A stretch of 64,000 nt of DNA from Lophium mytilinum (Eukaryota > Ascomycota > Dothideomycetes > Mytilinidiales > Mytilinidiaceae), in NCBI GenBank assembly GCA_010093605.1, contig MU004198.1, positions 254,456 through 318,455 on the forward strand, given 5' to 3'. Under the pieces are notes generated by a model. That model had not been told where the DNA came from and did no database searches. It was given only the letters and a program-made list of their open reading frames with translations. The translations under genes and the position numbers were made by a program. Below, piece by piece: positions 22,487 through 40,637 of the stretch (its first letter is position 1; each line of letters opens with the position of its first letter).

Positions 22487-23848
22487 CTATTCGGGTTTTC
22501 GGCCGTATACGAAACGTCTGGAAAGGCAAAGTCAGTACGTATTCCTAGAGAAGGTCGCGGAAGAGGTCTACGAGAGGGGGAGGCAAACTCACATGCTCCA
22601 ATACGCATGAATATCGCGATTCATAACATCCTTCCGCGCCTCGGCGACCAACACCTGCACCTCCTCCTTCTCCCATCCGAGTATCCGCGTCAGCGGCGCC
22701 ATAGCCAGCGCCTCGAGTGCCTCGACCGTGTTCTCGCGGCTCCACAGCCCCATCAGCTTCATCTTTTCGTCCTTAGGCCATGTGTTGATCGGCCACTTGT
22801 ACGTCTCATCCGTGACATCGACGAATCCGGCGTCTATCATCCGCCGCTTGTGCAGCGGCGCCTCGACCATGGAGCGGCCGATCTTCTCGACCGCCTCGCA
22901 GGTCAGGTTCCACCAGCGCGCGAGGCTGCACGAGGGCGGGTCGAGGGTGAAGCTGTCGTCGTCGCACTTCAGCGTCCACACGTCCTGGTTCTCCAACCAC
23001 CCACCCGGGCGCAGGTTCGCGAAGGCGGCGGCGAAGAACTTGGGCCAGTCGGCCAGGCTGGCGACCATCATGCGGCTGTGAATCAGGTCGAAGGGGTGGC
23101 GGTAGTGCCAGGTCTCTTCACAGTCGTCGATTAGGAAGGTGAGGTTGGGGGGAACGTCGGTGGGTTGGATGGGGGAGAGGTCGATGCCGATAACTTCGCA
23201 GCCTGGGTGCGCGTCGGCGAAGTCCATGGCCCAGATTCCTGTGCCCGTGCCGACGTCGAGGCAGTGGAGGGGGTTTTGGAGGGGGGAGACGTAGAGGGCG
23301 CCGCTGATGGTCATGGAGAAGAGCATGTTTTGTAGGTCGAGGCGGTCCATTTCTGAGTCGTCGTTGGGGAGGATGTATTCTGTGGAGGGGGGTAGAGTCA
23401 GTCGCGAGGTCTGATTTGAGGTGTGGGAAGCTGTTCGGGGTACGCACTCCCATCTCGATATGAATGATACGTCCGCCCATTCTCTTCGCGGAAATGTTGT
23501 ATACTTGACGTCAACGACGCGGTCCACGTCGAGCTGTTTCTGCAGGCGAATTGTTAGATGGATCGCACACGTTGTCCCTGGTGTGCAGTCTCGACTCACA
23601 CTGAACCGGCATATGCGGAGTCGTTGTCGGAGCCTGTCTGGAGCACGCACGGCATTAGTTTGCTGCGTCTTCTTCGTATAACGTGGACAGTCTCTCACAT
23701 CCAATTCGATGTCCTGGTTGTGCTCGATATCCGTGCCGTCGGTGTGGACGTCGTCATCCGGCGTGTCACCGGCGTCGTGCGGTGGTGGATCGAGCGCGGA
23801 GTTTGGATTCGCAGTGCCGTCGCCGCGGGAGGAGGACGACGACGCCAT
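22487..23848 (-). CDS. LaeA-like SAM-dependent methyltransferase, 365 aa
   Basis: Five exons: 23848-23699, 23637-23600, 23539-23448, 23379-22593 and 22517-22487. The joined product has the full landmark order of LaeA-like enzymes: WTASLTSSIQHF, EENGRTYHSYRDGKY then ILPNDDSEMDRLDL, the SAM-binding LDVGTGTGIWAMDFAD, and the C-terminus VYGRKPE. The tiny last exon supplies that ending. A single open frame from 23848 to 22589 runs through the first three introns (61+60+68 = 189 bases), so an intronless model is tempting but loses the YHSYRDGKY motif. LaeA relatives influence secondary metabolism; others modify small molecules. The gene is head to head with a P450, which suggests a joint biosynthetic or detoxifying role (inference). 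Confidence 0.88.
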
Positions 23849-24680
23849 GGGGATTGATTGCGTGCAGTACGCACTGCAGCTTTCGTGTGGTGGTCGTAGT
23901 AGTGTGGTTAGGGCGGATGAGGCTACTGCCGCGCGGGTGAAAGAAGAGAGGAAAAAGGTGAGTGGCAGATCGTATGGAAGAGGCGGAGAAGAAGAGCAGC
24001 GATTGATCAGGCCCTCGGTCCAGTCAGGCTGCGCGGTTCAGGTGTCGCGGTTCGTATGCCCTCTCGATGCGAACGGGAGGAACCGATGCTGCGAGTGTGC
24101 GGCGAAGTGACCAGGGACGGCCGGTGTGCCGCATAAGATAGCGCACGCAAAGCAACGCCCGGGCCTCTGACGGGGAAGCGTGGTCCGGCCCGGCAAGCTT
24201 GCTGTCAGTGCCCGTGTGGGGTATTCCGCCCAAGCCAATTGGCTCGAGAGTCTTGGATGCACTGGGCCAAGGGCACTTGTGCACCGCGTTCCCGAGTCAG
24301 CTAGGGCGCTGTCCACTAAGAGGCCGGCATCCCGAGCGACCCTGGCAAAGCGTGGGCTTGGGAGAAGCCGGTGGCCGGCTCGGCAGTGCATGGCGCTATC
24401 AGGCATTGATATTGACCCTAACCCAGCCGCTCATAGCCCATATCCAAGCAGCGGGTTAGAACGCAGCTTAGCGGTCCTCGCAAGGCACCGTATTTATGGA
24501 CCTCTTGCCGCCGTGTGGTGGGGGGCGAACGTGTTGGTTGCTGACAGCTTTGCTTTGCTGGGTCGCCGCATAATTCCAACCATCTGGTCGGTCCCAGTCA
24601 ATCCGCAAACTACTTCCTACCCCGACGGGACAAGAACCCTTGGAAACCACCTTTTCTTCTTTTTGCAATTGCGCCCAGCG
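23849..24680. promoter_or_regulatory. Divergent promoter region, methyltransferase / P450
   Basis: 832 GC-rich bases between opposed genes. It holds a perfect 12-base palindrome with CCAAT on both strands at 24233-24244. An open frame in P450 phase extends upstream to 24180, but it lacks family similarity and is treated as leader. Confidence 0.5.
24233..24244. promoter_or_regulatory. Palindromic double CCAAT site
   Basis: AGCCAATTGGCT is a perfect 12-base palindrome giving CCAAT on each strand. It sits inside the divergent promoter. CCAAT is bound by the fungal HapB/C/E complex; binding here is inference. Confidence 0.35.
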
Positions 24681-26782
24681 ATGCCGCAAATTGGCCCCCT
24701 CAACGTCGCCTACTGGCACCTGGCGGCCGTCGTCGTCTTGGCGTATGTCGCGCGCTTGTACGGCCAGTATCACCGTCTGAGACACTTCAAGGGCCCTGCG
24801 ACGACGGGCTTCTCGGCCTGGTGGATGATTCTGGCTGTGAAGGGCAAGAAAGCACATTTGTCATATTCGGGAGTCAATGAGAAATATGGTAAGTAGCGCT
24901 ATGTTGAGTTTGCTGCTTTTGTTGCTTTTTCTCAATTGCGTCTTATCATTGCCAGGTGGTGGTGAGAGACCGCCGCGACGCTGCTGTGTAACGGCGACCA
25001 GCCGCTTTTCTTACCCTAATTTGTGTTTTTGTCTGCAGGATGCCGTAGAAGAGCGGCGGACCTGAAAGAGCTGGGGGAAGAGTGGTACAAAGACCCATTG
25101 CTGACCATGTTCGTACCCCACAGGCGCCCTCGCTCGTATTGGCCCCAACGACCTCCTCACCAGCTCCCCCGAGCTCTTATGGCGCATGAACAGCGTCCGA
25201 TCTACCTACACGAAAGGTGGCTGGTACAACGGCTCCAGGATCCAGCCAGGCCGTGACAATGTGTTTAGTGGGATCGATGAGGACCGTCATACGAGTCGGA
25301 GGGCACAATTGGCTCCAGCTGTAGGTGTTTTCAAACCTCCTCTTTGGACACAAGAAACCCCTCTCTAGGTGGAAGAAGCCCACACTATGAGAATTTGAAG
25401 CAGAGAATCCATCGTTGAGTGATAAATCGGAAAAGAGTACAAAAGCTAACAAACAACCACCCACAGTACTCGGGCAAAGACATCCCCTCGCTCGAAGCCG
25501 AAATCGACGATCAGATCCACAACCTGCTGCACCTAATCCGGACCTCGTACCTCTCCACCCCAGGCCAATTCCGTCCCATGGACTTGGCCCGCAAAGCCCA
25601 GTTCTTCACACTCGACGTCATCACTAAGATTGCGTTTGGAGAAGCCTTTGGTGATCTGGAGAATGATAAAGATATGTACGAGTATATCAAGAGCACCGAG
25701 GACATGTTGCAAGTGATCATCATGGCTGCCACGATGCCGCTCATGAAGAGCATGTTCACGGTCGAGTGGATTGGAAACCTGATGTTTCCGAGTGATAAGG
25801 ACGGAGTCGGGATCGGGAAACTGATTGGGTGAGTACCTTTCATGTCAGTTTAAACTATCTGCGCCGCAGCCACGCAGACGTCAGAGTCCGCTCAGGCACT
25901 CGTCAAGCTCTCGATGCGTCTATCCAATGGCGAGATTGGTAGCCCTATTCCTGCTAGCTGTAACTGACGATGTTACAGTATCGCCAAAGACCTCATCTCC
26001 CGCCGCTTCGGCCCCAAACCCATCCACCGCCAAGACATGCTCGACTCCTTCATGCGCCACGGCCTCAAGCAAGACGAGCTCGTCTCCGAGTCGCTGATCC
26101 AAATCCTCGCCGGCTCCGACACTTCCGCCACCACCATCCGCGCGACGATGCTGTATCTCATGTCCCACCCCCGCGTCTACCGCAAGCTCCAAGACGAAAT
26201 CGACGCCGCCGTCCGCGCGCGCAAATCTGCCCAACCCATCATCACTGCCACCGAAGCCGCCGAGCTACCCTACCTGCAGGCCGTAATCAAAGAGGGCATG
26301 CGCATCTGGCCCGCCGTCACGGGTTTGCTGACGAAAGTCACGCCGCCAGAGGGCGATACCGTCGAGATCGATGGCGAGACGGTGTATATCCCCGGTAACA
26401 CGAATGTAGGGTATGACGCGTGGGCTGTGCATCACAGCAAGGAAGTGTTCGGACAGGACGCGAATCTGTTCCGGCCTGAGCGGTGGCTGGAGAAGGAGGG
26501 GGAGGAATTGAGCAGAATGCAGCGGACCGCGGAGCTGATTTGGGGATGGGGGAAGTATCAGTGCCTGGGGAGGCCAATTGCGACTATTGAGTTGAATAAG
26601 GTTTTTTTTGAGGTGAGTGCTTGCTTTGAGAGATGGGGGAGTTTGTGGCTAATAGATGGCAGCTTCTCCGCAACTTTGACTTCTCAGTCGTCGATCCGAC
26701 GAAGCCGTGGAAGAGCGCGAATGTGGGACTGTGGATGCAGTCGGAGTTGTGGGTTGAGGTTACGGAGAGGAAAGCATCCTAG
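24681..26782 (+). CDS. Cytochrome P450, pisatin-demethylase-like, 506 aa
   Basis: Five exons: 24681-24888, 25124-25320, 25467-25828, 25979-26612 and 26663-26782, all in phase. The ATG at 24681 precedes an N-terminal membrane anchor (WHLAAVVVLAYVARLYG). Landmarks follow in order: ARIGPNDLLTSSPELL, the I-helix oxygen-binding AGSDTSATTIR (about 300), ExxR in KEGMR (361-364), FRPERW, and the heme loop WGWGKYQCLG with Cys near 451. The first heme-loop residue is normally Phe (FGYGKYQCLG in relatives); here it is Trp. The C-terminus ELWVEVTERKAS is typical. The relatives are fungal phytoalexin-detoxifying and secondary-metabolite P450s. Three introns are 146 to 235 bases, long for this window. Probably an ER monooxygenase working with the divergent methyltransferase. 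Confidence 0.9.
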
Positions 26783-27827
26783 GGGCGAAGTGGGTGGTGG
26801 GTGGGTGGGTGGATGGCGGGAGACGGCATTGTAGATGTGAGCGTTCTTGTCGGTCGAAGCGGTAGCCTTCATCAGCATGTAGATGTGAGCGTTTCGTTCC
26901 GCTAGTTCCATCCGAAATGTTATGACTGTAATGCTCTTGAAATGATTCAACAAAGTGACGGGTTATAGCTCTCTTGTGCGGCGTGCTCTCCCTGCGATTA
27001 ATTGCGGGATTGAACTCGGTGGCTGGTTCTTTGAAGTTTCCTCTGCTCGGCATCCAATTCTTCACCGCTTGCATCGTTAGAGGTGGTGTAGTAGGATTAG
27101 ATAGGCGCAGGCATATACTATAGAGGCTGTTGTCTTGTTTGAGCTTACCGCGCAGGCAGCTAGGGATACCACCTCTGCTATACCACGTCAACCTCCTCTT
27201 AGTACTACTAAATAAGAAAGTTAAGATAGAAAGTAGCACCTATAAGTAATAATAAGACACCCTTCTATTCTATCTAGAGTAGAGTAAAAAGAATATCTAA
27301 GGAGCAAAACACCACCCTCATTAGAGGGTGTAGCCACCTCGGAGAGGTTTCTTTAGATCCATCCTGGAATTCCGGAGCCCGCAATTCTTCAATCCATCGA
27401 ATCTTCACCGGCCACTCTCAGCCTCACGCACCAACTGCATACAGCCTCTTTACCGGCTTCCAAGCCTCTCATGCCGCCTCCGAGCCGGTTCCCAAAGGAA
27501 ATCAGCTTTTAACACCATAAGTCGAGTCGAGAATCGCCGACTGCTAGGGTCGAACGCCAGACCAACTTCTAAACTCAGGTGAGGAGTGTCGGCGGTGGGT
27601 AGAACCCACCTCGCGAGGTGCGATGCCTGGAATCCGGCCGCGGGCTTACACTCGGTGTGGCCGACTTTACCAACTGAGCCACAGGACCTGCGAAAATTAG
27701 TTGGGAGTTTACCGAAATATACGAAATATATAGATAGGCTCGGGAGAGGTCACGCTTATAACGTCGCACTCATGAAACAATACAGAGATAGAAAACAGCA
27801 TATGGATAGAACTACCTACGACTTAAC
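26783..27827. other. Intergenic with repeat relic
   Basis: About 1 kb between convergent genes (P450 and aldolase). The part from about 27,180 to 27,310 is AT-rich with many TA steps, as in repeat-induced-mutation relics. It is followed by the SINE-like element described separately. Confidence 0.5.
27240..27694 (-). mobile_element. Probable tRNA-derived SINE relic
   Basis: Read on the minus strand from 27694, a tRNA-like head begins GGTCCTGTGGCTCAGTTGGT, with an excellent A box (TGGCTCAGTTGG). Possible B boxes follow, GGGTTCTACCC near 27,600 and GCGTTCGACCC near 27,550. The 3' CAGGACC needed to close a real acceptor stem is absent, so it is not a working tRNA gene. The body continues for about 300 bases, includes a 7-bp hairpin (27313-27330, loop ATTA) and fades into an AT-rich tail near 27,240. 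The borders are approximate and no target-site duplication was identified. Confidence 0.45.
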
Positions 27828-28785
27828 TCACGCCTTGCCCGCCGAATAACACACATCAAACTGCCACTCCATCAGCTTCACCACCTTCTCCACCCCCTCC
27901 TCCATCAGCGTCGTCAAGCCCAACGTACTCGCCTTCTCCTTCAAATGCACCAAATAGTCATCCAACACCAGCTTATTTACATTGATCTTGCTCACGCCGA
28001 GCTGGATGCACCGCCGCATCGTAACCTCATCAAAATCATTCGTCCCATGCAACACAATCCGCACCCTCCCCGCCGCGAACTTCGCAATCGCCTCCAGCCG
28101 CGGATAATCCAACCGCGGCCCCCTTGCCCCATACTCCCCATGGACATTCCCAAACGCCGGCGCGAGAAAATCCACCCCCGTCGCCATAAACTCCCCCGCC
28201 TCCTCCGGCGTCGTCAGCATGCCCTCCAAATCCGCCGTATCCGCGATGCCATCTTCACCCCCTTCGATGCGCCCGGGCTCGGCCTCCGTCGCGATCCCCC
28301 GCTCGTGGCAGTATGTCACGAGGGCTTTGGTCTTGGCGAGGTTCTCGGCTTTCTCGTAGTGCGACATGTCGACCATGATGGAGTCGAAGGGGAGGGTGTC
28401 GGCGGCGAGGCGGATGAGCGCTTCGTCCTGCGCGTGGTCGAGGTGGATGGCGATGGGGACGGTGGCGCGCGAGGCGGCGTCGGCGGCGGCGCGCACGAGG
28501 AGGCCGGCGGAGAAGGTGATGGCCCAGGGGAAGACTTGGAGGATTAGGGGGGAGCGGGCGTGTTCGGCGGCGCGGATGCAGCCGATTATGTGCTCGATGT
28601 TGTAGCTGGAGGGGGGTTAGCTGGGGAGGTCTTATAGCTTCTTTGCGAAGAGGAAGAGGAGGAAGGAGAGGTGTGGTAAGTGAAGAAGGAAAGAGGGCAT
28701 ACACAATGGCAGCGATTACCCCATAACCCCCCTCTTCCGCATCTTTCAAGATTTTCACGGTTTTGTTATCTTTGAGGTCTTTCAT
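27828..28785 (-). CDS. Class II (zinc) fructose/tagatose-bisphosphate-type aldolase, 286 aa
   Basis: Exons 28785-28703 and 28605-27828, joined in phase 2 across a 97-base intron (GTATGC donor, CTAAC branch). The start ATG at 28785 gives MKDLKDNKTVKILKDAEEGG, leading into GYGVIAAIVYNIEHI. Zinc-site histidines fit IHLDHAQ, GNVHGEYG and VLHGTNDF. The phosphate-binding end is KINVNKL. The length matches bacterial-type FbaA/GatY/KbaY aldolases, which split a ketose phosphate into dihydroxyacetone phosphate and an aldehyde. Fungal glycolytic aldolase is also class II but longer, so this is probably a paralogue with another ketose phosphate as substrate. It lies head to head with SDR1, at the edge of the proposed catabolic cluster. 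Confidence 0.88.
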
Positions 28786-29303
28786 GATTCCAATTTGTCA
28801 AGAACAGAGGACGGACAAAGAAGCTCCAAATTGGAGAGGTAGGGTATACCAACCCCTCTCCAGCGGCGTCCCATGGCGGTTAATAGCATCTCAGCACGCG
28901 TTGTGGTGTTAGGTCGTTAGCTCGGAGGGAAATCCGGCGAGGGATGATGCATGCCAAGCGGTCTCCACATCCCACAAAAAGCGGGTTGACCTCGTGTCGA
29001 GTCTCCTTCATCCACGACCCGCTACTAACACCCAATGGATCTGTACCATACGCGCTATCCCCGCAGTCCCTGGGGCCCTGAGGGTGGGAAAGGTGGGTTG
29101 CCAATTGCGGGCGTGATTGAGGGGCAGAGGCGGGATGTGCCAGTAAACTGATACCAGGGAACGAGGAGTATTAGAAACTCGAATAGACATACATTTATCC
29201 TTACGAGTCCTGTTCCTTACATCTGTTCCGCTTCGTATAACTCTCACGACTCTCATATTTCTCTCATCTCTCACATCTCTCACATCTCTCCCATATCTCC
29301 ACC
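28786..29303. promoter_or_regulatory. Divergent promoter region, aldolase / SDR1
   Basis: 518 bases between opposed start codons. The leader of SDR1 is pyrimidine-rich with repeated TCTCACATCTC. The arrangement would allow common control of aldolase and dehydrogenase. Confidence 0.5.
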
Positions 29304-30375
29304 ATGTCCAAAGAAGTCATCACCCCCCAAAAGAAAATCACCCTCGAGGGCAAGATAATCGCCAGTACGCCGCCCCCTTCTTACTCAACTCAACCTCGAC
29401 CCCAAATCTCCTCCCCAAACCCACCTTCTCCCCTCCCCCACCTCCTCACCTCCTAACCTTCCCCCCAAGTCACCGGCGCCAACCGCGGCATCGGCCTCGG
29501 CATCGCCGACTGCTGCCTCACCAACGGCGCCGCCCGCCTCTACAGCCTCGACCTCGCCTCCCCCTCCCCAGACTCCGATTTCACGGCTCTCGCGAAGCGG
29601 TTCCCGGGCCAACTCTTCGCCCTCACCGCCGACGTGACCAACGAAGCCTCCGTGACGGCCGCCGTGGACCAGATCATCCAGGAAGCGGGCGCGATCCATG
29701 GCATGGTGGTGAATGCGGGCCGCACGCTGCATAAGGCGGCGCTGGACTTCACGACGGCGGAGATTGAGGGGTTGTGGAATGTGAATGTGCGTGAATGCCT
29801 GGATCTGAGAAAAGGAGGGGGAGGGGGAGGGGTTAAGGGAAGTGCTAATGCGGTTCGGTGTAGTTATTCGGCTCCTTCTACTGCGCACGCGTTGCCGCGC
29901 GGGCGTTTATAAAGCTGAACATCAAGGGCTCGATCGTATTCACGGCATCCATGGCGTCGTACCGGCCTAACAAGGTACGTCTCCCTTCCCCTTCCCTTAA
30001 CCCCCTTTCCACCCCTCTCTCTCCTACCCCCTCCCCTCGCCCCCCTTTTTTGCTCACCGGACCCAGCGCGTCCCCTCCGCCCCCTACGGCGCCAGCAAAG
30101 CCGGCATCCGCAACATGACGCACACGCTCGCGATGGAATGGGCCGCGCACAACATCCGCGTCAACTCCGTCTCCCCAGGCCTCGTCAACACCGCCATGAC
30201 GTACTGGGTGCCACAGCAGCCGGATTGGGAGAAGCAGTTAGAGTACTATGGGGGCATGCCGAGGCTGGCGGAGGTGGAGGAGCTGGGCGGCGCGTATGTG
30301 TATTTGTTGAGTGATGCGGCGAGCTATACGACGAGTATTGATATTCCGGTGAATGGGGTGATTGGGATTTGTTAG
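29304..30375 (+). CDS. Short-chain dehydrogenase/reductase (polyol/ketose type) SDR1, 265 aa
   Basis: NAD(P)-dependent oxidoreductase related to fungal sorbose reductase, arabinitol and mannitol dehydrogenases. Four exons: 29304-29364, 29470-29786, 29864-29974 and 30067-30375, all phases agreeing. The cofactor motif TGANRGIG (22-29) is formed across the first junction. VVNAG, the catalytic serine in FTASM and Tyr-x-x-x-Lys as YGASK (170-174) follow. The C-terminus is typical (YVYLLSDAASYTT). The closest relative in view is SDR2 at 39636-40637, which shares most of the C-terminal half, including MTHTLAMEWAAH and YYGGMPRLA. Two of its three introns have no counterpart in SDR2. Confidence 0.9.
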
Positions 30376-30561
30376 GTGGGAAGCGAGAGTTGAGCGAGGT
30401 TTTGAGCAGTTTCGAGATATGAAAAGTGTGTTCTGGCCGTCTTTGTGCAGTCGAACATAGGGGAAGTCTGTTCAGAAGCAATCAATGTTCTGTGATTATT
30501 CAGCAAAGGTATGGTATCTATCCATGAACGCCCCTTTTCCAACCACCCCCCCCTTTCTTGA

Positions 30562-32398
30562 CTACCCCATCCGCCCATCCCCCTTCCGCCACTCCCCGAC
30601 CAACTCTTCCCCTAGCGAGTTCACCGGCCACCCCGTCCGCGACTGGTGTTCCTCGATCATGTGCAGTATCGCTTCCCGCTTCGGCGGCTCCTGCGTATAC
30701 AGCCCCGCGCCAAAGAGGCATTGGGTGCTGACGACACACGCCGCTTCCTCGGTCAGAGTAGATGCAATGCCGCCGATAGCATCAATAGCATCAATGAGCT
30801 GTTTGCTGCGTTCCGCATACTCCAGGAAGCCGCCTGGCGCGGGCCGGTGGACTAAGAGAAGGATGCGGGCGAAGGAGTAGAGTTGGATTGAGACAGCTAG
30901 GGAAGGATCAGTGATTTCAACAAGGCATTTGACAGGCACGTGGGAAAGGGGTATAACATACCGAAAGCAGGCGGATTTATCCAGATAGGTTTAAACACCG
31001 CATTCTCGCTCCCGCCCTGCAACGGCAGCGGATTAAAATGCACGCTCAGATTCCCCTTCCACTCCTCCAGCGCCGCCAGCAGCGCGTCTGCGCGCTCGAT
31101 CCTGGGCCGGAGACTCGCTTCCCCGATTTTGCACTCCTCGGCGGAGCTGTAGTTGACGGCTTGGACGAGGAGGTACACTACTCGGGACGCTATGTCGTAC
31201 TGCTCCATCACATGATACGGTTTCGTAGGCTTGAAGAAGCTGAACGCTCGCCGACCTTCGCGGAACGCGGCCCATAGGTCCTGTCGTAGCCAAGCCCACC
31301 ACACGGCTTGCTTGAGGCCGCCAGATTCGCCGTTGATGTCTTGGGAGCGCTGGATCCAGAAGACGCCTTTTAGATGGCGTTCCCAGCCTTTGCCGGCGCC
31401 GTCGATCATTTCGTACATTGAGACGATGAGGGCGGTGGCGATGAGCTCGAGGCTGCGGGTGTAGGATTCGTGTTTCATGGCGCGTTGGAGGTATTGCAGC
31501 GTTTCATAGTAGTACTGCACGGCTGTGGTGCGGTCGAGGAGCGGGCCGCCTGGTTCCATGGGTTTGATGGAGAGGTGGCGCGAGGACAGGGCCAGGATGG
31601 CTTTCATGAGACCTTCGTTCTGCAGCGCGAGTTGGGGGACGAAGGTGGAGAAGTGCTTCAGCGGGTCGTACATGTCAATCCAATGGCTTAGGTTCTCGAC
31701 GAAGCGGCGGAAGATGGGGATTTCGCGGTCGCGTAATTTGATGGGTGACTGCCAGGATTCTCGACCGTCCCCAGCCGGGGGAATGCTTCGAGGGACGGAA
31801 GTAGGGGCGATGTGGGCGAATCGTAGACTCGGGGTTCCGGTGGAGTAGGCAGACGCTGGGTAGGTTGGACTCCGCGCATCGTCCATGAGATTTTCGTTGA
31901 TGCTTGGGGATTTTGTGGAGAGGTTCTCGTGAAGGAACGCGAGGGAGCCATCGTCGGCTCCGTTCGCGGCGTCGTCCGCAAGGAGGCCGAACCATCTTAA
32001 AGGTGCGACTTCTACTCCATAGCCAGCTGATCCACTGAAATTCGATTGAGGGCTTGTTGTGTTGGCATCGTTCCAGCTTCCTTGATCTATGGAGCGTCGA
32101 GCTGTTTCTGGGCTGCTGATTTCTGGTATTTGTTTGCTCTGTCAAAATTAGCATACACTCGCCAGTTCAGTGGAATCCGGGTTGAAGGTCTACTCACGGA
32201 AGGAAGTGACGGTACTTGACTCTCTGGAGGACTCCAGAGTACCTGCGATGAAGACAGGTCTTTCGTTGCTCGTCTCGATTCCTCATCCTCGGGCGGTGGT
32301 GATTGTTCCTGTTGCCAATGCCCTACTACAGAATTGGGAGCTGGCCTGTCGCTCTCACTGGGAGTCAAACTTGGATTCGCATTGTGTGACTGAAGCAT
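30562..32398 (-). CDS. Fungal-specific transcription factor (Fungal_trans_2 type), no Zn2Cys6 seen, about 570 aa
   Basis: Likely nuclear regulator. Exons are 32398-32198, 32138-30962 and 30896-30562, with introns 32197-32139 (GTGAGT, GCTAAT) and 30961-30897 (GTATGT). The middle domain starts around PIFRRFVENLSHWIDMYDP and includes LMKAILALSSRHLSIKP and FARILLLVHRPAPGGFLEYA, typical of the Fungal_trans_2 family. These normally carry an N-terminal Zn2Cys6 cluster. I find no Cys-x2-Cys-x6-Cys pattern upstream on the minus strand to about 32,700. The ATG at 32398 is therefore the simplest start, but an acceptor-like TTCAG just after it leaves room for an unseen upstream exon. It sits inside the catabolic cluster, next to the kinase, so it is a good candidate for its regulator. 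Confidence 0.8.
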
Positions 32399-33221
32399 GC
32401 GTTAGTAAGAGTACAAGAAAGGTAATGATGGTAATAATTGAGGTTCGAAATTGAAGGCAGTTACAAGGCTCGTACAACTCGTGCCACTTGATTGCAGAAA
32501 TCTGCGTCACCTGTGCGATGAACCACAATCACGCATTGAGTGACAGTGACCGGACACGAGTCCTCTTGCACGGGTTTAGGAGCCATAATGGTTATTGGGC
32601 TGTTTTAATCGTGTATCGGTACCACTGGATAGACGAGCCACGCGCGCAAGGATTGCCGTGAGCACGAAGGGTATTATTGGCCTCTCTTCGAGTGCCAGCA
32701 GCACACTTGGTAGAATGGACTAGACTAGGGTCCGTAAGAAGCAAGTCATCGCCGCCTTGGGTCTAGTGCCAACGTGTTTACCACGTGTGCGTGGTGTCTA
32801 TGCAGGGCAAGGCGGTCTACCTCCCCAGCCTTATGGATCTATCTGATATCGAGAGACAGGTTTACAAGACCTCAGATAGACGTTCAAGCATTCTGGGAAC
32901 GAGCATTCGAGAAGAAAATAGGAACCTATTACCTTTGCACCGTAGACGCAATCTCTGCCACCTTTCGCACAAGGTCCACAAGTCGGCTTTTGTTCATCAC
33001 ATTTCTAGAATGGCTACGTTAACGCTTGTTCGGTCCTTTGGAACAAGCTTGACGCACCATATGACGACGACGGCAGATGGCACTGAATCAGTAGTTAGCA
33101 GGTGTTCACGATACATGAATCTCAATTGGAAAGTGGCGCATGTGCTGAGCAGCGGTGAAGCGTGAGAACTGGTCTCGGCACGGGCTTAGCGGAATAGCAA
33201 CCGGGCAGCTTACCATCCCGT

Positions 33222-33239
33222 CGTGGTCCGCAGACCACG
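33222..33239. repeat. Inverted repeat, 7-bp arms
   Basis: CGTGGTC and GACCACG flank a 4-base loop (CGCA). It lies 22 bases before the second inverted repeat, between the regulator and the kinase. Confidence 0.6.
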
Positions 33240-33260
33240 GCCACGAGGCTTCCTCGGCTT

Positions 33261-33284
33261 CCGCAGGCCGACTGGGGCCTGCGG
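33261..33284. repeat. Inverted repeat, 9-bp arms
   Basis: CCGCAGGCC and GGCCTGCGG are perfectly complementary around a 6-base loop (GACTGG). It could be a dyad operator for a dimeric factor or a cruciform; function inferred only. Confidence 0.6.
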
Positions 33285-34115
33285 AGGTTTGGTGGGGGGG
33301 TCGAGGGGTGTGGAGGTGGGTGCTGGCAGCATCGTCTCGTGGCAGTAGGGAGGGCGAGGCGAAGTTGCACGAAAAGGAATTTCAAACCCCATTCCCACGC
33401 CGACTCGAGACGGGGCCAGGAACAGTTCCGCGGCCCTTGGCGGCCTTAAACACGTGAGCTCGGAGAAATTGGTGGCGTCACCGAGCGTTGCTGCACCTCC
33501 TGGCCTCCCATGCAGCACCGCCCACGACCAAAGACACGCTCTCGGGATGTCGCTTCTGGGCAAGAAACGGCGGCCACGCAGAGCCTCACAGCCTTTCCAT
33601 CGTCTACTCGCATTGTCTGAGTCGCACGTGAGTTGACTCGCGTACCTCCATCCCGGAATACCGCTTTGGGCCTTCCAGACGCTCTTTAGCAGAGGGGCGA
33701 ACCATGCGGCAGCTGAGTGGTTGACTGCGTCTGGAACAACCCCTCCCGCATCCACGATGGCGGGGTGTCGATCCACTGACCGGGGTAGCTTTGTGCATCA
33801 CTTGGGTAGAGACAAGGCGGACGAAGCCTTTTGACTGCGGTTCGGGTCGAATGTGACAGATTTCAATCCTGAGCTCTGTATGTATTGTATATCTTCTTCT
33901 GTCAGACCGAATTCGGTTCTTATCATCTCGATTGATTCAGTGGGTGGGCAGCAGTGATGACTTCCTTTCATCGACAGCATGTAGCGCTACTCCAATCGAG
34001 CCTCCCGGCATTTGAGCGGGCACGCGGACAAATAAATACATAGCCAGCCCCTCACGTCACGTAGCACGCGTTTGTCTCCAACTTTCCACACTCTTCGTGT
34101 TCTCAATTCCACATC

Positions 34116-36121
34116 ATGTCTACGAAGCACTTCTTTCCCCATACCGAGGGAGTCGTCGTTCAGGCCCTCAACTCCCTGGTGGCAAGAAACCAGCATTTGG
34201 GACTCGATGAGCCCAACCGTGTCGTGTTCTCCAAAGCCCACCCTCCCTCACAAGTGACGGTGATTTCAGGAGGTGGTTCTGGACATGAACCTGCATGGTC
34301 AGGCTATGTCGGAGAGGGTATGTTGGCGGCTGCGGCGTGCGGAGATGTTTTTGCCAGTCCCTCCACCAAGCAGATCATGGCTGCGATCAAGAACGTCCCG
34401 TCTGACGTTGGCATAATACTGTGTATAACGAACTATACTGGCGATAAACTGCACTTCGGCCTGGCTTGCGAGAAGGGACTCGCACTAGGATATAACATCT
34501 CCGTGGTGAACATGGCAGAAGACGCTTCTCTCGGGAGGAAAAAGTCAGAACTGGTCGGACGACGAGGTCTTGCGGGAAACTTGCTTGGTAAGTGGCCTTC
34601 GTTCCTTTAGCACCTACTCTCCCTGAAACAGCTGCTAATCTCTCTTCTCTACAGTTCTGAAGCTTGTCGGAGCTGCAGCACAGCTTGGCTGGAATTTCGA
34701 ACGATGCTTGAAACTTGGGAACCTCGGAAACGACCAACTGGTTACAATGGGTACAAGTCTTGATCACTGTCATGTCCCCGGACGAGCACATCATGAGGCC
34801 GTTCCAGAAGATGCGGTCGTGTTGGGAATGGGTATCCACAACGAGCCAGTTAGTCCTACTTTGGTGATGATTGACGACTGAAAATCCTGCTAATATGACT
34901 GATAGGGACTTCGAACCGTATCACCAATGCCATCAGCGGAAGATATCGTCAAGGAGATGTTCCTCTTCCTCTTAGATCAATCAGACGCGGACCGTGCCTT
35001 CGTCAAAATCGAGCCAAAAGACGACGTCGTTATGCTGATTAACAACTTCGGTGGCCTGTCAGGTCTGGAACTAGAAGCACTTACCAACATATGCCTTGTT
35101 CAGCTAAGTATGCTGGCATTCCTCTCCGCTCATATGAAGTTCGCTAACCCCAACAACAGAACGTGACTGGAAGATCGTCCCAAGTCGAGTATACGCAGGA
35201 GTTATGGAAACCTCGTTAAATGGCCCTGGCTTCTCAATCACCCTCGGAAACATCTCAGGGATCGCACGTATCATGGAAACCAAAACGTCTGAAATCATCT
35301 CCCTGCTCGACCTCCCCACCACCGCCCCCGCCTGGCCAAAGAACGGGTACGCCCCCATCAAAGAAAACGCCTCTCTCGCACAAAACACATCCGGCGAAAG
35401 CAAAACCCCAGCCGCCCAAGGCCCCATAAGTGCGTGCCTCTCTCTACCCCTATTTCTAGCCTCCTTCACTTCAATCATACTAACAGCAACCACAGTCCCC
35501 GAGTCTTTAATCCCCTCCCTCCGCCAAGCCTGCACCGCCGCCATCAAAGCCGAGCCCCTGATCACAAAATACGACATCCAAATGGGCGACGGCGATTGCG
35601 GCGAAGCCGTCGAGTTCGTCTGCCACCGCATCGTCTCCAAACTCGACGAGCTCCCCTCGCCCACCTCCACCCACATCTTTCCCTTGCTCGACCGCATCAT
35701 CGACGCCGTCGAGGACACCGGCGGCTCCCTCGGCGCCATCATCTCCATCTTACTCACCGCGTTCTCGAACTCCCTTCGTTCGATCGAGAAAGCGAATCCT
35801 AAAGGGTTTACTTTGGATGCGCAGACGGTAGGTAAGGCGGCTGGTCCGGCGATGGAGAATCTGAAGCTGTATACGTCTGCGCGCGTGGGCGATCGCACGG
35901 TGATGGATGCGTTGATTCCGTTTTGTGAGAGTCTTGAGAAGGAGGGAGATTTCGGGAAGGCGGTGGCGGAGGCGGAGAAGGGGGCCAAGGCGACGGCGGG
36001 GATGAAGGCACGGTTTGGAAGGGCGACGTATGTGGCGGATGATAAGGCGCAGGAGGGGGACATGCCGCCTGATCCGGGGGCTTTTGCGGCGGGGGTGTTT
36101 TTGAGGGGGTTGGAGGGGTGA
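34116..36121 (+). CDS. Dihydroxyacetone kinase family (DAK1-DAK2) ketose kinase, 587 aa
   Basis: Phosphorylates dihydroxyacetone or a similar short ketose with ATP, in the cytosol. Exons are 34116-34587, 34655-34848, 34906-35107, 35160-35429 and 35496-36121. The N-terminal DAK1 domain has GGGSGHEPAWSGYVGEGML (from residue 52) and the substrate-binding His 219 in GMGIHNEP, at the end of exon 2. Next is RDWKIVPSRVYAGVMETSLN. The DAK2 domain has the Mg-ATP motif MGDGDCGEAV, then DTGGSLGAIISI. Length and order match fungal single-chain DAKs. The family also includes erythrulose kinases (yeast Eyk1 type), so substrate is uncertain. The last intron is 66 bases, a multiple of three, with no in-frame stop, so retention would only insert 22 residues. 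Confidence 0.93.
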
Positions 36122-37052
36122 AAAAGGGTGACGAGACTAGGTTCGCGTTGTTTAGCATGGTATCGATACTTTGTGTTCTTTATTGACTACAGCATATCGA
36201 CTGTGAAGTGAGCGATGAGCTTCGAATTGGCCCCTTACCCTCGAGACTTTGCCAGCACACAAACCGCACCGAAGCACCCCGGCCCCTTTCTCGAGTCCCC
36301 AGTTTCCTCAATAGCCAGTTCTAATTAGAAACCTCTTAGCAACAGCTTCCCCAATCGCCCCAATCTCCACCCATAATCGCCGTCTTTCTTCCCTCGATCC
36401 CATTCCCTGCCTCCCGTCTCTCAACATCCCCCGCATCCGATCCCGTGTGCTGAAACCCTCTCGACACCTTACTGTATAAACCACAACGCACGGAATTTCG
36501 CAGAACAATTTGAAAACGTATTCTCCACCTCTGCTCCATTCGTCTATTTATCACTTCTCACCTCTGTCTCTTAAGCGCATATATACATCGCTGAAAATTT
36601 CCAGATAGTTGCGGATTTAAGACTTCATTGAACCGTAACCTAATCACAGCATTCAAAAACCACAGTCTTAGTTACTGGGAGGTAAAATGATGTCGCTAGG
36701 AATAGGGAAAGTAATTAGGATCCTTGGGACGTGAAGCTTGGCCGGGGTTGAGGCGATGAGAGGTGTGATATGTTAGGTAGTAGAAGAGTAGCAGAGAAGA
36801 GCTCCAGCCGAGAAAACTGAGAGTGAACGCAGCGAGGAGCTCAAGCATAAAAGATTAGAGCCATTAATAAGAGTAGTGGTCCTCTTATCAAAGGTCACCG
36901 CAAGATCAACCCACAGCCGTAAGAATGCATAACTTCATTATCATCGCTCACTCCACAAACTCCCGCTCAAGCCCGTATATACCACACACCCCACAGTCAG
37001 ATCTATATACAACCCCACCCGCCCCCAAAAGCGCAACAACCCCTCGTCCATC
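36122..37052. other. Intergenic, convergent genes
   Basis: 930 bases between the 3' ends of the kinase and transporter genes. No gene, repeat or clear signal recognised; moderately AT-rich in the middle. Confidence 0.5.
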
Positions 37053-38624
37053 TCACTTCGACGGATATCTCCTAATAACCACATGCGACACCACATAAAC
37101 CCCCACCCCAAACGCACACATCCCACTAATAACCCCAAACCCGAGCAAATACTTCGGCGCATCCTCCTTCGGAAACAGATACGCGCCATAAATCTGCGCA
37201 AGATTCCCCATCGCATTCACAAACGCCAGACTGACCGCGCGCACCTCCTGCGGCATGGACCCGAACGTCGAGGCGCTGTAGCTCAGCGCGAGCCCGTTGG
37301 AGGCCCACAGCCCGGCGGCCATGAAGACCAGCAGCACGTAGCGCGCGGTGAAGTTGTAGATGGTGCAGACGAGGATGCTGCAGATCATGGAGAGGGTCAG
37401 CCAGGCGGCGATGACGATGCCGCGCTGGGTGGGGTGTTTGTCCATGAAGTAGCCGGTTATGCCGACGGCGAGGAAGGCGACGGCGTAGATGGGGACGACC
37501 TGGGGGGTGGTTGGGTTAGTGTTGTCGTTGACATGGGAGTTTGATGCGAGTGGTAGAAGTCGTGGGAGGGGAGGATGCGTACCATGTATTGGGCCATGTG
37601 GCTGGTGTAGCCGAGCCCCTTGACTAGTGTTGGGTAGAAGTAGGAGAGGGTGGAGGAGCCGACGATGACCATGTACCCGGCGGTTAGCAGCCAGGTCCTC
37701 CAGTTGCTGAGGGCCATGGCGAGGGCTTGGAGGGAGGTGAGGCGGGGGTTGTCTTCTGTGCGCGAGGTCACTTCGTCGGCGGCGAGCCGGCTGATGGCGA
37801 GTTCCCGTTCACGGGGGGTCAGGCGGGCGGTGTTGGCCGGGAAGTCGAGGAGGATAAAGTGCGAGCAGATGGCCCAGAAGGCGGTTGCGGCACCTTCGAC
37901 GATCTTGAGAATGTTAGTCATGGTGGTTGGAATGGAGAGGGGAAACTTACGAAGAGCCATCGCCACCCTTCTAACCCGCGGACACCGTCGAGGCCGCCTG
38001 TGATAGCACCAGCGAGGATGCCGCCGAATGCTCCTGAGAGAACAGCGGCAGAGATGTAGACAGCGAAACGCTTGGCCTGTTCATCCTTCTTATACCACGA
38101 TGACAGGATGAGCAGGATACCAGGCGCGAACCCAGCTTCCAAAACACCGACTATCAGCCGTAACGAAAGAAGCGCGTGATAGCTGTGTGCGAGAGACATG
38201 CAGCACGTTACGGCTCCCCACAGCGTCATGATGATCGGGAGATAGATAGAGGGCTTCGTCTTTGATAAGATGAGGTTGGACGGGATCTCGAACACGACGT
38301 AGGTGATGAAGAAGACAACAAGGGAGATGGAGTATTGGCCTGATGTGAGATGCAGGTCAACGTCCATGCCCGCGACTTTAGCGTTGCCAATACTGACGAT
38401 TATTAGTTGGTGGAATTGATGACCCCTTGATGGGAGCACATGGTATCTCACTTGGTACGGTCCATATAGGACAGGAGATACATAAGCCATATCGTCGGTA
38501 AGAGGAACAGATCGATCTTCCGGACGAGAGCCTTCTCTTCCGCTTTCAGCGCTTCGTCGTCCATCGACGGCTCGTACGCCTCGATCTGCTCAGCATCGGG
38601 GGTTTGCTTGAGATCTAGCGACAT
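37053..38624 (-). CDS. MFS transporter, anion:cation symporter (Tna1/Dal5-like) family, 460 aa
   Basis: Plasma-membrane permease. Exons: 38624-38452, 38392-37951, 37903-37583 and 37499-37053, all in phase. The family signature DRTNIGNAKVAG is built by the first splice. Multiple hydrophobic segments fit the 12-helix fold, with LLSLRLIVGVLEAGFAPG as the usual loop and helix. The C-terminus is cytosolic and basic (RRYPSK). Members carry nicotinate, allantoate, tartrate, uronates and other organic acids; some carry sugars or vitamins. Placement between the kinase and SDR2 suggests it imports the cluster substrate. The family leans towards acidic substrates, which is a clue, not proof. Confidence 0.9.
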
Positions 38625-39635
38625 GATAGTGGAGGCAGGCAGGTGGCCGAACAAGGAGAACAATCTGCAATTGAAATCAAGGAAGGAGCTGGACTAGGAG
38701 ACTCAAAAGCGCGTAAAACTCGTGGAACTGACTGAACAAGGAAAGCAGGAAGATGTGAGAGTATCAGAATGAACAGAGGTTATATAGCATCGCGGGCTCG
38801 CATCTTGAATCGAGCAGTCCAAGGTCGAATTCCAGCCTTTTGCCCTAAAACCAGGATGCACGGCCGCTATTCGCATTGGCTGTCGAAAAGCGGCCGAGAC
38901 AAATTCGCCGAAGAACGAGCGTCCTGACCCAGATGCCAGGGAAGCCATGGCGAGCGACCGGTTGTCGGTAGCCTAGCACATCCTGTGATGGCCCCGCGCT
39001 GACCTTCTCCAGTCTTCTGGGGAACTTGTGGAGGCGAAAATGGGGAGGGAGGCTAAGGGGCGTGGAGTCGTAGTAAAGAATGGGGATAGACTCGGCACGA
39101 GGCCAGAAGCTCGTCTCGGGGCAGATATATGGCCACCCTGCGACCCAATCAACCTCCCAGGCCGTCTTTAATCGGGCCATCCCCACAATCTCTCAACCTA
39201 ACGAAACCACCTGTTGAGCCTCGAAGCGGTGTCCCCGGGTAGAGGTGGCCTCAGCACTAAAGTCGCTCGTAGCTCCCACGGCGCGAAGCTCCGAGGTACC
39301 CACAGAGGCTCCGGACCGCATGTATGGACGCGCACCGTGATGCTGTGCCGTGGGGGAGAGCTTTCAGGGAAGATGGGTCTTTCGCGGTGGGAGATGTGCC
39401 GACGTTCTTTCCGACGTGTAGAATAAGTATCATAGGGTCCTGCGCTTCTCTTTCTTGCTATCTGCGCTTGTCGTTTGTCTGAGTCTCTGTCCTCCAGCTT
39501 CTTCCTCTCTACTGAATCTCACAGCTGTTGTCTAAATATCAATCTTCCCTCAAACCCTCCCTTCTCAACCTGAGTCTATAGACTCGTGTCTTCACACTCC
39601 CATTGAAAGCACCGATTCCCCTCTAAACCCTCACA
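38625..39635. promoter_or_regulatory. Divergent promoter region, transporter / SDR2
   Basis: 1 kb between opposed start codons. It includes CGG/CCG-rich stretches around 39,220-39,330 (for example CTCCGGACCG), possible Zn2Cys6-type sites. The last 200 bases are a pyrimidine-rich leader of SDR2. Confidence 0.5.
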
Positions 39636-40637
39636 ATGGGCTCCAACGAAAACGGCGCCGGCGTGTCTTCTGCTGCCGCTCCCTCTTCCACAACGACCCC
39701 CCTCACCACCCAACCCCCCGCAAACTTCAACTGGCAAATCACACTCGCCTCAAAAGTCATCGCCATCACAGGTGCCAACCGGGGTATCGGCCTCGGAATT
39801 GCAGAAGTATGCCTCGCCAACAGCGCGAAAATGGTGTACTCGCTCGATCTCATGGACCCCTCAGAAGACTTCGCCGCCCTGCACAAGAAGTACCCAAACT
39901 TCAAGTACATCCAGATGGACGTCACAAACGAAGAGAGCGTGCAGAAAGCCATTGATAGTATAGTAGAGGCCGAGGGCCGAATCGACGGTTTAGTAGCGAA
40001 CGCAGGCATGACGAAGCACCAACCCGCCCTAGACTTCACAAGGGCAGAGGTAGAGAAGTTGTTTAATCTGAACGTGAGTCTCCAAAATCCCCATCGTCCT
40101 CATCCCAACCCAATCAACTCCTAAACCTACAATCCGGTAACCCCCTAACCAACCCAAACCCCCGCCTCCACCTACCAACCGAAGCCCCAATATCTCTAGC
40201 TAATGCCCACCCCCTAGGTCTTCGGCGCCTTCTTCTGCGCCCAAATCTTCGCCAAAAAATGCATCGCCCTCGGCACCCCCGCCTCCATCGTCTTCACCGC
40301 CTCCATGACCTCCTACCGCCCCAACCGCGCCGCCCCCTCGGCCCCCTACGGCGGCACCAAAGCCGCCGTGCGCAACATGACCCACACGCTCGCCATGGAG
40401 TGGGCGGCCCACGGCATCCGCGTCAACAGCATCTCCCCCGGCTTCGTGAAGACGGCGATGACGTACTACGTCGAGAAGGCGCCGGACTGGGACCTCAAGA
40501 TGCAGTATTACGGCGGCATGCCGCGGTTGGCGATGCCGCAGGAGCTGGGAGGGGCGTATGTGTATTTGTTGAGTGATACGGCGAGTTATACGACGGGGAT
40601 TGATATTCCGATTGCGGGGATTGTGGGGGCGTGGTAG
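39636..40637 (+). CDS. Short-chain dehydrogenase/reductase (polyol/ketose type) SDR2, 285 aa, paralogue of SDR1
   Basis: Two exons, 39636-40073 and 40218-40637, across a 144-base intron. The ATG at 39636 gives an extra 40-residue Ser/Thr-rich leader before VIAITGANRGIG (cofactor motif, residues 45-52). LVANAG, FTASM and YGGTK (190-194) are the catalytic set. The end DTASYTTGIDIPIAGIVGAW matches SDR1. Its intron lies after NLN in phase 0, exactly where SDR1 has one after NVN; the other two SDR1 introns are absent. Likely NAD(P)-linked interconversion of a polyol and a ketose. Having two such enzymes allows an oxidise-then-reduce sequence, as in fungal pentose pathways (inference). Confidence 0.9.

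Follow-up and report, generated by a model that had tools for sequence, protein, structure and literature searches.

A six-gene cluster of the fungus Lophium mytilinum combines a DAK-family kinase with a class II aldolase and may serve the breakdown of a small, possibly acidic, sugar compound

What is broken down, and by which sequence of steps, by the six adjacent genes that occupy positions 27,828 to 40,637 of a 64,000-nucleotide stretch of the genome of Lophium mytilinum? The stretch (the window hereafter) spans positions 254,456 to 318,455 of contig MU004198.1 (C18:254456-318455 in our contig labels) in a genome of 43.18 Mb and 24 contigs, and its introns and gene families are of the filamentous-fungus type. 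An earlier note had read the six genes as a sugar or polyol catabolic cluster comprising a class II aldolase, two short-chain dehydrogenases/reductases (SDR1 and SDR2), a fungal regulator, a DAK-family kinase and a permease of the major facilitator superfamily (MFS). All six families are indeed present as intact, spliceable genes with a Pfam match for each family and the catalytic residues in place, and together they make a plausible catabolic unit: a ketose-type kinase that keeps the DAK residues, an aldolase and dehydrogenases, with a transporter and a regulator of their own. What did not hold equally well is the chemistry that had been suggested, i.e. plain cleavage of a ketose 1-phosphate, and we add to the earlier reading hints of an acid sugar, which come from the type of the permease and from an aldolase paralogue that lies beside a gene resembling L-threonate dehydrogenase.

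We propose that the six genes would form one inducible catabolic unit. The permease would import a small polyhydroxylated compound, an anionic one (an aldonate or another acid sugar) being likelier than a neutral one, and one or both of the NAD-dependent SDRs would oxidise it to a hydroxymethyl ketone, i.e. a compound with a HOCH2-CO- group. The DAK-type kinase would bind this ketone via its active-site histidine and phosphorylate the terminal hydroxyl, and the zinc aldolase would then cut the neighbouring carbon-carbon bond, yielding dihydroxyacetone phosphate (DHAP) and a small fragment. A longer chain would leave an aldehyde or an aldehyde acid, a four-carbon 3-oxo acid CO2. The Zn2Cys6 factor would turn the cluster genes on. 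Step order, acidic substrate, products and co-regulation are predictions of this scheme. For its chemical core, the kinase acting before the aldolase to give DHAP whatever the substrate, we see an even chance; the scheme as a whole, with an anionic substrate favoured, is our preferred but tentative reading, to which we give somewhat less than an even chance.

The gene models, which were built by hand with GT-AG introns on the basis of splice signals and homology, fall into three head-to-head pairs, as the earlier note had recognised. In the first pair the aldolase gene (F_bP_aldolase family; 27,828-28,785, minus strand; 286 amino acids; 2 exons, 28,785-28,703 and 28,605-27,828; PF01116, E = 2e-82) and the SDR1 gene (29,304-30,375, plus strand; 265 amino acids, 4 exons; PF13561, 1.5e-49) diverge from a region of 518 bases between the start codons (28,786-29,303). 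The second pair consists of the gene for the Zn2Cys6/Fungal_trans_2 transcription factor (30,562-33,332, minus strand; 639 amino acids, 6 exons; PF00172, 2.3e-8; PF11951, 3.6e-16) and the kinase gene (34,116-36,121, plus strand; 587 amino acids, 5 exons; Dak1, 3e-91; Dak2, 1.4e-33), with 783 bases between the start codons (33,333-34,115), and the third pair of the permease gene (37,053-38,624, minus strand; 460 amino acids, 4 exons; PF07690, 1.5e-38) and the SDR2 gene (39,636-40,637, plus strand; 285 amino acids, 2 exons; PF13561, 4e-51), which are separated by 1,011 bases (38,625-39,635).

That these genes constitute one functional unit appears very probable to us. SDR1 and SDR2, one in each of the outer gene pairs, share 63% identity over 253 residues. 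With 136 of 167 candidates scored, the genome yields 95 SDR matches at exon level; five of these are SDR1 and SDR2 themselves, and none of the remaining 90 exceeds 41% identity. This close kinship together with the positions in the outer pairs suggests a duplication that was retained within one functional unit. Moreover, both central enzyme families are rare in the genome, with four PF01116 matches at three loci and five Dak1 matches at three loci, and if such loci were placed at random, any aldolase would lie within 10 kb of any DAK gene with a probability of about 0.004, a crude figure that ignores non-random gene order. Alternatively, two or three small functional pairs might merely adjoin each other, e.g. 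aldolase/SDR1 and permease/SDR2 acting on different substrates. This would agree with the three promoter regions, which have no motif in common: no 8-mer was found in all three intergenic regions (about 0.5 expected by chance; the search took 771 bases for the regulator/kinase region, from an earlier start estimate, instead of the current 783), and this also counts against our proposal. Yet under this alternative it would be surprising that, among the SDR matches scored, the SDRs of the outer pairs have no close relative but each other and that DAK and aldolase loci, three each, meet here, and we regard mere neighbourhood as quite unlikely.

The regulator proved longer than its main open reading frame. 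Its Zn2Cys6 cluster is complete and extends over three small exons upstream of that frame, and one intron of 543 bases was inferred. The sequence pattern CGG-N17-CGG occurs four times between regulator and kinase, once between permease and SDR2 and not at all between aldolase and SDR1. Eight genome matches to the cluster regulator were obtained, the first being the query itself, and the factor beside the DAK gene on contig C13 is the third of them, and thus not the best match of the cluster regulator. The open frames around another regulator relative, on C10, give no hint of a substrate. A precedent for a shared bidirectional promoter in fungi, and for 5-keto-gluconate, is provided by gluD/gluE of A. 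niger (PMC5306355; this and the other papers cited here are represented by excerpts).

Both SDRs carry the Ser-Tyr-Lys triad (Ser155, Tyr170 and Lys174 in SDR1; Ser175, Tyr190 and Lys194 in SDR2) and an Asp residue that ends strand β2 (Asp48 and Asp71, respectively). As a rule, an Asp at this position of an SDR goes with the use of NAD and hence with oxidation, so that the two enzymes fit the oxidising role assigned to them above. An Asp at the cofactor-binding place is also described for one NAD-specific L-fucose dehydrogenase from a fungus (excerpt of PMC12370193). The nearest solved structures include mannitol dehydrogenases and SDRs that bear no specific name, and both proteins stay under every cut-off of the NCBIfam models for KduD, GolD/DthD and gluconate 5-dehydrogenase.

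The kinase keeps His57, Asp110 and His219, which align with the hydroxy-ketone site of solved dihydroxyacetone (DHA) kinases and which we take to have the same roles here. With TIGR02361, the model for ATP-dependent dihydroxyacetone kinase, it scores 596.2 bits against a cut-off of 574.95, a margin of 21 bits; the other two copies in the genome, on C1 and C13, reach 740.2 and 574.2 bits, respectively, with models that we spliced ourselves and that lack the first coding residues. By these scores the C1 enzyme is less divergent than either the cluster kinase or the C13 kinase, and each of the latter two has a Fungal_trans_2 regulator, an SDR and a transporter as neighbours. Divergence and similar neighbours together favour, but do not prove, that both are specialised ketose kinases. 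Searches of plasmids with tblastn returned 659 records for the kinase and 367 for the aldolase, all below 60% identity, and in the two DAK neighbourhoods that were examined there was neither an annotated aldolase nor a tblastn match to the cluster aldolase. The C13 locus itself (C13:12055-24193, close to the contig end) is a second DAK cluster with a Fungal_trans_2 regulator, an MFS sugar porter, a DAK kinase, an SDR and a transketolase; it may represent another ketose route in which transketolase replaces the aldolase.

The aldolase covers positions 2-277 of the 277 positions of the PF01116 profile and retains the His/Asp/Glu motifs HLDH, VHG, LHG and EAE, which we presume to be the metal-binding and catalytic sites. 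It falls in the ketose-bisphosphate aldolase superfamily and lies below the cut-off in all 20 NCBIfam aldolase models listed. A role as glycolytic fructose-bisphosphate aldolase (FBA) was considered and rejected, as the protein is far under each of these 20 cut-offs; a separate PF01116 gene on C3 may be a candidate for that function. A solved relative is PDB 3pm6 (1.3e-91; 54% identity over 278 columns), a putative fructose-bisphosphate aldolase that we take to be of Coccidioides origin. In a tree of 18 hand-picked sequences, several of whose bacterial rows are close kin and four of whose start codons were chosen mechanically, the cluster aldolase, a copy on C20 that is 52% identical to it and 3pm6 form a clade with a support of 100/100 and a long stem, within which 3pm6 is nearer to the C20 copy than to the cluster copy. 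With 8 of the 15 inner forks open and a number of long branches, the tree does not settle where this fungal clade belongs among the bacterial aldolases.

The members of this clade differ from the bacterial enzymes in the loops that hold the phosphate. Of the 15 bacterial rows, 14 carry the Ser of the motif HG[A/G/S]S, and every one of the three fungal rows shows Asn or Asp there. The motif NxxT likewise has its Thr in 14 of 15 bacterial rows, and in all three fungal ones Lys or Arg stands in its place; the bacterial rows are not independent samples. At these positions, which have phosphate-binding roles in the class II FBA of E. coli, the cluster aldolase reads HGTND and NVNK. With both Ser and Thr gone, the fungal clade would either hold the phosphate differently or need none, and for this reason the cleavage of a plain ketose 1-phosphate to DHAP and an aldehyde, as suggested before, is weakened. 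We regard the altered loops as the most informative single result on the mechanism, and one that cuts both ways.

There is a second possible order of events, in which the aldolase acts first and splits an unphosphorylated ketose or keto-acid into free DHA and an aldehyde, and the DAK kinase then converts DHA to DHAP. Two observations favour it and, at the same time, count against our proposal: the loss of Ser and Thr in three of three clade members could mean that the aldolase handles no phosphorylated substrate at all, and the kinase exceeds the cut-off that was curated for glycerone kinases (596 versus 575 bits). On the other hand, the Lys or Arg in place of Thr could bind phosphate instead, the kinase scores well under the DHA kinase on C1 (740 bits), and we know of no class II aldolase of this fold that acts on free ketoses. 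Altogether, an aldolase-first route seems decidedly unlikely to us, and we return to phosphorylation before cleavage.

The permease bears on the nature of the substrate. Its only Pfam match is MFS_1 (PF07690) and not the sugar porter family PF00083. Among the NCBIfam models the one for the D-galactonate transporter, TIGR00893, comes first (E = 1.5e-54; 185.5 bits versus a cut-off of 395, in a library made for prokaryotes, so that a fungal member may score short), and its top PDB match, 6e9n, also belongs to D-galactonate transport (9.9e-10). This agrees with the assignment to the anion:cation symporter type (ACS; TC 2.A.1.14) that had been made before, and the family gives a weak hint of an acidic substrate. 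Three permease relatives on C12, C13 and C17 lie in regions whose open frames give no hint of a substrate. Elsewhere, at C11:752400-758800 (locus L054), two relatives of the cluster permease flank a gene for a D-isomer-specific 2-hydroxyacid dehydrogenase, possibly another organic-acid locus.

A neutral compound, along the lines of the earlier note, has to be considered as well. In such a route a polyol would be oxidised to a ketose, e.g. a pentulose or a 6-deoxyhexulose, the DAK enzyme would phosphorylate C1 and the aldolase would release DHAP together with glycolaldehyde or lactaldehyde. Polyol and sugar SDRs are among the matches of both SDRs (the mannitol dehydrogenase structures and, under its cut-off, the GolD/DthD model), membership of the aldolase in the ketose-bisphosphate aldolase superfamily is in line with such a route, and a DAK-family erythrulose kinase operates in the erythritol cluster of Yarrowia lipolytica (excerpt of PMC5992420). 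The permease, however, matches MFS_1 only and lacks the PF00083 domain that is seen in the C13 DAK cluster, the phosphate loops of the aldolase are altered, and the six genes include no isomerase for an erythritol pathway. Thus weighed, a neutral polyol or rare ketose is a possible but rather unlikely substrate, and an anionic one remains our preference.

Candidate acid-sugar genes lie elsewhere in the genome, one of them beside a relative of the cluster aldolase. This relative, the C20 aldolase paralogue, is divergently paired, at a distance of about 0.6 kb, with a NAD_binding_2/11 gene (locus C20:156373-159274; L006, L022, L023). The latter matches the NCBIfam model for L-threonate dehydrogenase best, its first frame of two, with 286 amino acids, reaching 178 bits (cut-off 350). 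On C11 (C11:814147-818899; L053) a D-erythronate dehydrogenase scores above its cut-off (331.7 versus 325 bits), and about 2 kb from it lies a kinase of the SBD_N/NBD_C type, whose first frame obtains 33 bits from the D-threonate kinase model against a cut-off of 450. Taken together, the two loci resemble a possible tetronate pathway in two pieces. Frames that adjoin the C20 pair (L023 4770-7795) contain hydantoinase/oxoprolinase-type and S-Me-THD-like domains.

The last enzyme of the bacterial three-step threonate route is reported to be of the F_bP_aldolase type, which is also a domain of the plant protein LTD (excerpt of PMC12540250, in which Guo 2024 and Zhang 2016 are cited as primary work). 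Seven plasmid records contain a kinase similar to the C11 kinase; six were examined, four of which are annotated. In two of these four the gene right after the kinase encodes a class II aldolase, and in the other two it does not. In the unannotated record L059 an aldolase was located with tblastn some 2.6 kb away from the kinase, and in the unannotated record L061 no aldolase query gave a match. A scan of GTDB with the two fungal aldolases, which rested on two short peptide patterns and could have let closer kin escape, confirmed three relatives among 95 pattern matches, all of them actinobacterial and 40-41% identical, and the neighbourhood of one, L028, looks like an aga-type operon (one neighbourhood read).

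Several of these results weaken the case for an acidic substrate. The ACS type is a broad hint, as 103 exon-level genome matches to the permease exist, four of which are its own exons, and the match to the D-galactonate model is far under its cut-off. In BLAST the cluster aldolase is nearer to the aga-type actinobacterial enzyme L028 (120 bits) than to candidates for the bacterial threonate-route aldolase OtnC (at most 91 bits), and these candidates fall outside the fungal group in the tree, with its 8 of 15 open forks. As the fungal clade stands apart from the plasmid aldolases in the tree and is nearer to the aga type in BLAST, its link to acid sugars is one of gene neighbourhood and not of phylogeny, i.e. 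it comes from a single neighbour, the L-threonate-dehydrogenase-like gene on C20.

We also speculate on a more specific scheme, which we deem unlikely but worth stating, namely a phosphorylative acid-sugar route new to fungi. In it, the DAK kinase would replace the DUF1537-type kinase, an aldolase with a rebuilt phosphate site would cut keto-aldonate phosphates (or decarboxylate 3-oxo-tetronate 4-phosphate) to DHAP, and the anion permease and the two NAD-dependent SDRs would feed the pathway. If this were true, the same aldolase clade would, via its C20 member, also serve the split tetronate pathway of the fungus.

Outside the cluster, the first recognised gene to the right encodes a TRAPP subunit. 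To the left, a dispersed repeat is followed by a cytochrome P450 gene (about 24,171-26,834), neither of which we assign to the cluster, and, farther out, by a gene with a methyltransferase domain (22,589-24,037), which is LaeA-like by eye. The repeat (27,264-27,741) lies directly left of the aldolase gene and has 13 genome matches including itself, i.e. seven other copies of about 370-415 bases with 78-92% identity and five shorter fragments. By eye it contains a tRNA-like stretch and may perhaps be a short interspersed element (SINE); ARAGORN and Rfam, the latter at its gathering threshold, gave no match.

How does the cluster compare with known systems? The erythritol cluster of Y. lipolytica, to which it had been likened, comprises EUF1, EYK1, EYD1 and EYI1 plus a TPI-like isomerase, and the likeness holds insofar as there, too, a DAK-family erythrulose kinase adjoins a dehydrogenase and a fungal regulator (excerpt of PMC5992420). 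Its RpiB-like and TPI-like isomerases, however, have no counterpart among the six proteins according to Pfam, which in turn include a class II aldolase, a second SDR and an ACS-type permease; the only genome match to the RpiB family is on another contig (C19:1130736-1131161), and TPI-type genes were not searched for genome-wide. The analogy is weakened because of these missing isomerases, and membership in the erythritol pathway as outlined in that excerpt was rejected on the same grounds.

The three-step threonate route (LtnD, 2-OtnK and 2-OtnC, and the plant LTD fusion; excerpt of PMC12540250) is similar in its logic, as a dehydrogenase, a kinase and a last enzyme of the F_bP_aldolase family lead from an acid sugar to DHAP, but there the kinase is of the SBD_N/NBD_C (DUF1537) type and the dehydrogenase of the NAD_binding_2/11 type, whereas the cluster has a DAK kinase and SDRs. 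An SBD_N/NBD_C kinase and an LtnD/DenD dehydrogenase are absent from the cluster, such genes being located on C11 and C20, and in the tree the fungal aldolases are apart from the bacterial OtnC candidates. The logic of the cluster recurs in a Klebsiella plasmid operon of the YdjI type (L069), in which a regulator and a class II aldolase form one unit with MFS transporters, dehydrogenases and a sugar kinase. The individual parts are different: the kinase is annotated as 'sugar kinase', the alcohol dehydrogenases are zinc-type and NAD(P)-dependent ones, and there are an aldo/keto reductase and a DeoR regulator. The operon's aldolase shares 34% identity with the C20 copy.

Other candidates were rejected. 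For the fungal L-fucose cluster (FUR1 of T. reesei) the excerpt proposes dehydrogenase, dehydratase and aldolase steps and does not mention a kinase, and the cluster does not fit it (PMC12370193); neither the L-glucose route of Luteolibacter (excerpt of PMC12632266) nor the rhamnose transporter RhtA of A. niger, a member of the FHS family (excerpt of PMC5161314), matched. Among the literature matches listed (titles and beginnings of abstracts, with few subscription journals) there was none on a fungal cluster that unites a DAK kinase and a class II aldolase with SDRs and an ACS permease, so that the composition seems undescribed, although its parts and its logic are familiar. A counterpart of a single component is 3pm6, which belongs to the same aldolase clade as the cluster copy, with the 54% identity given above and the same altered phosphate loops. 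If the pathway is real, it would provide a function for this fungal clade, which has a solved structure but a putative name, as well as a role for non-canonical DAK kinases in filamentous fungi and candidate enzymes for the fungal use of plant-derived acid sugars.

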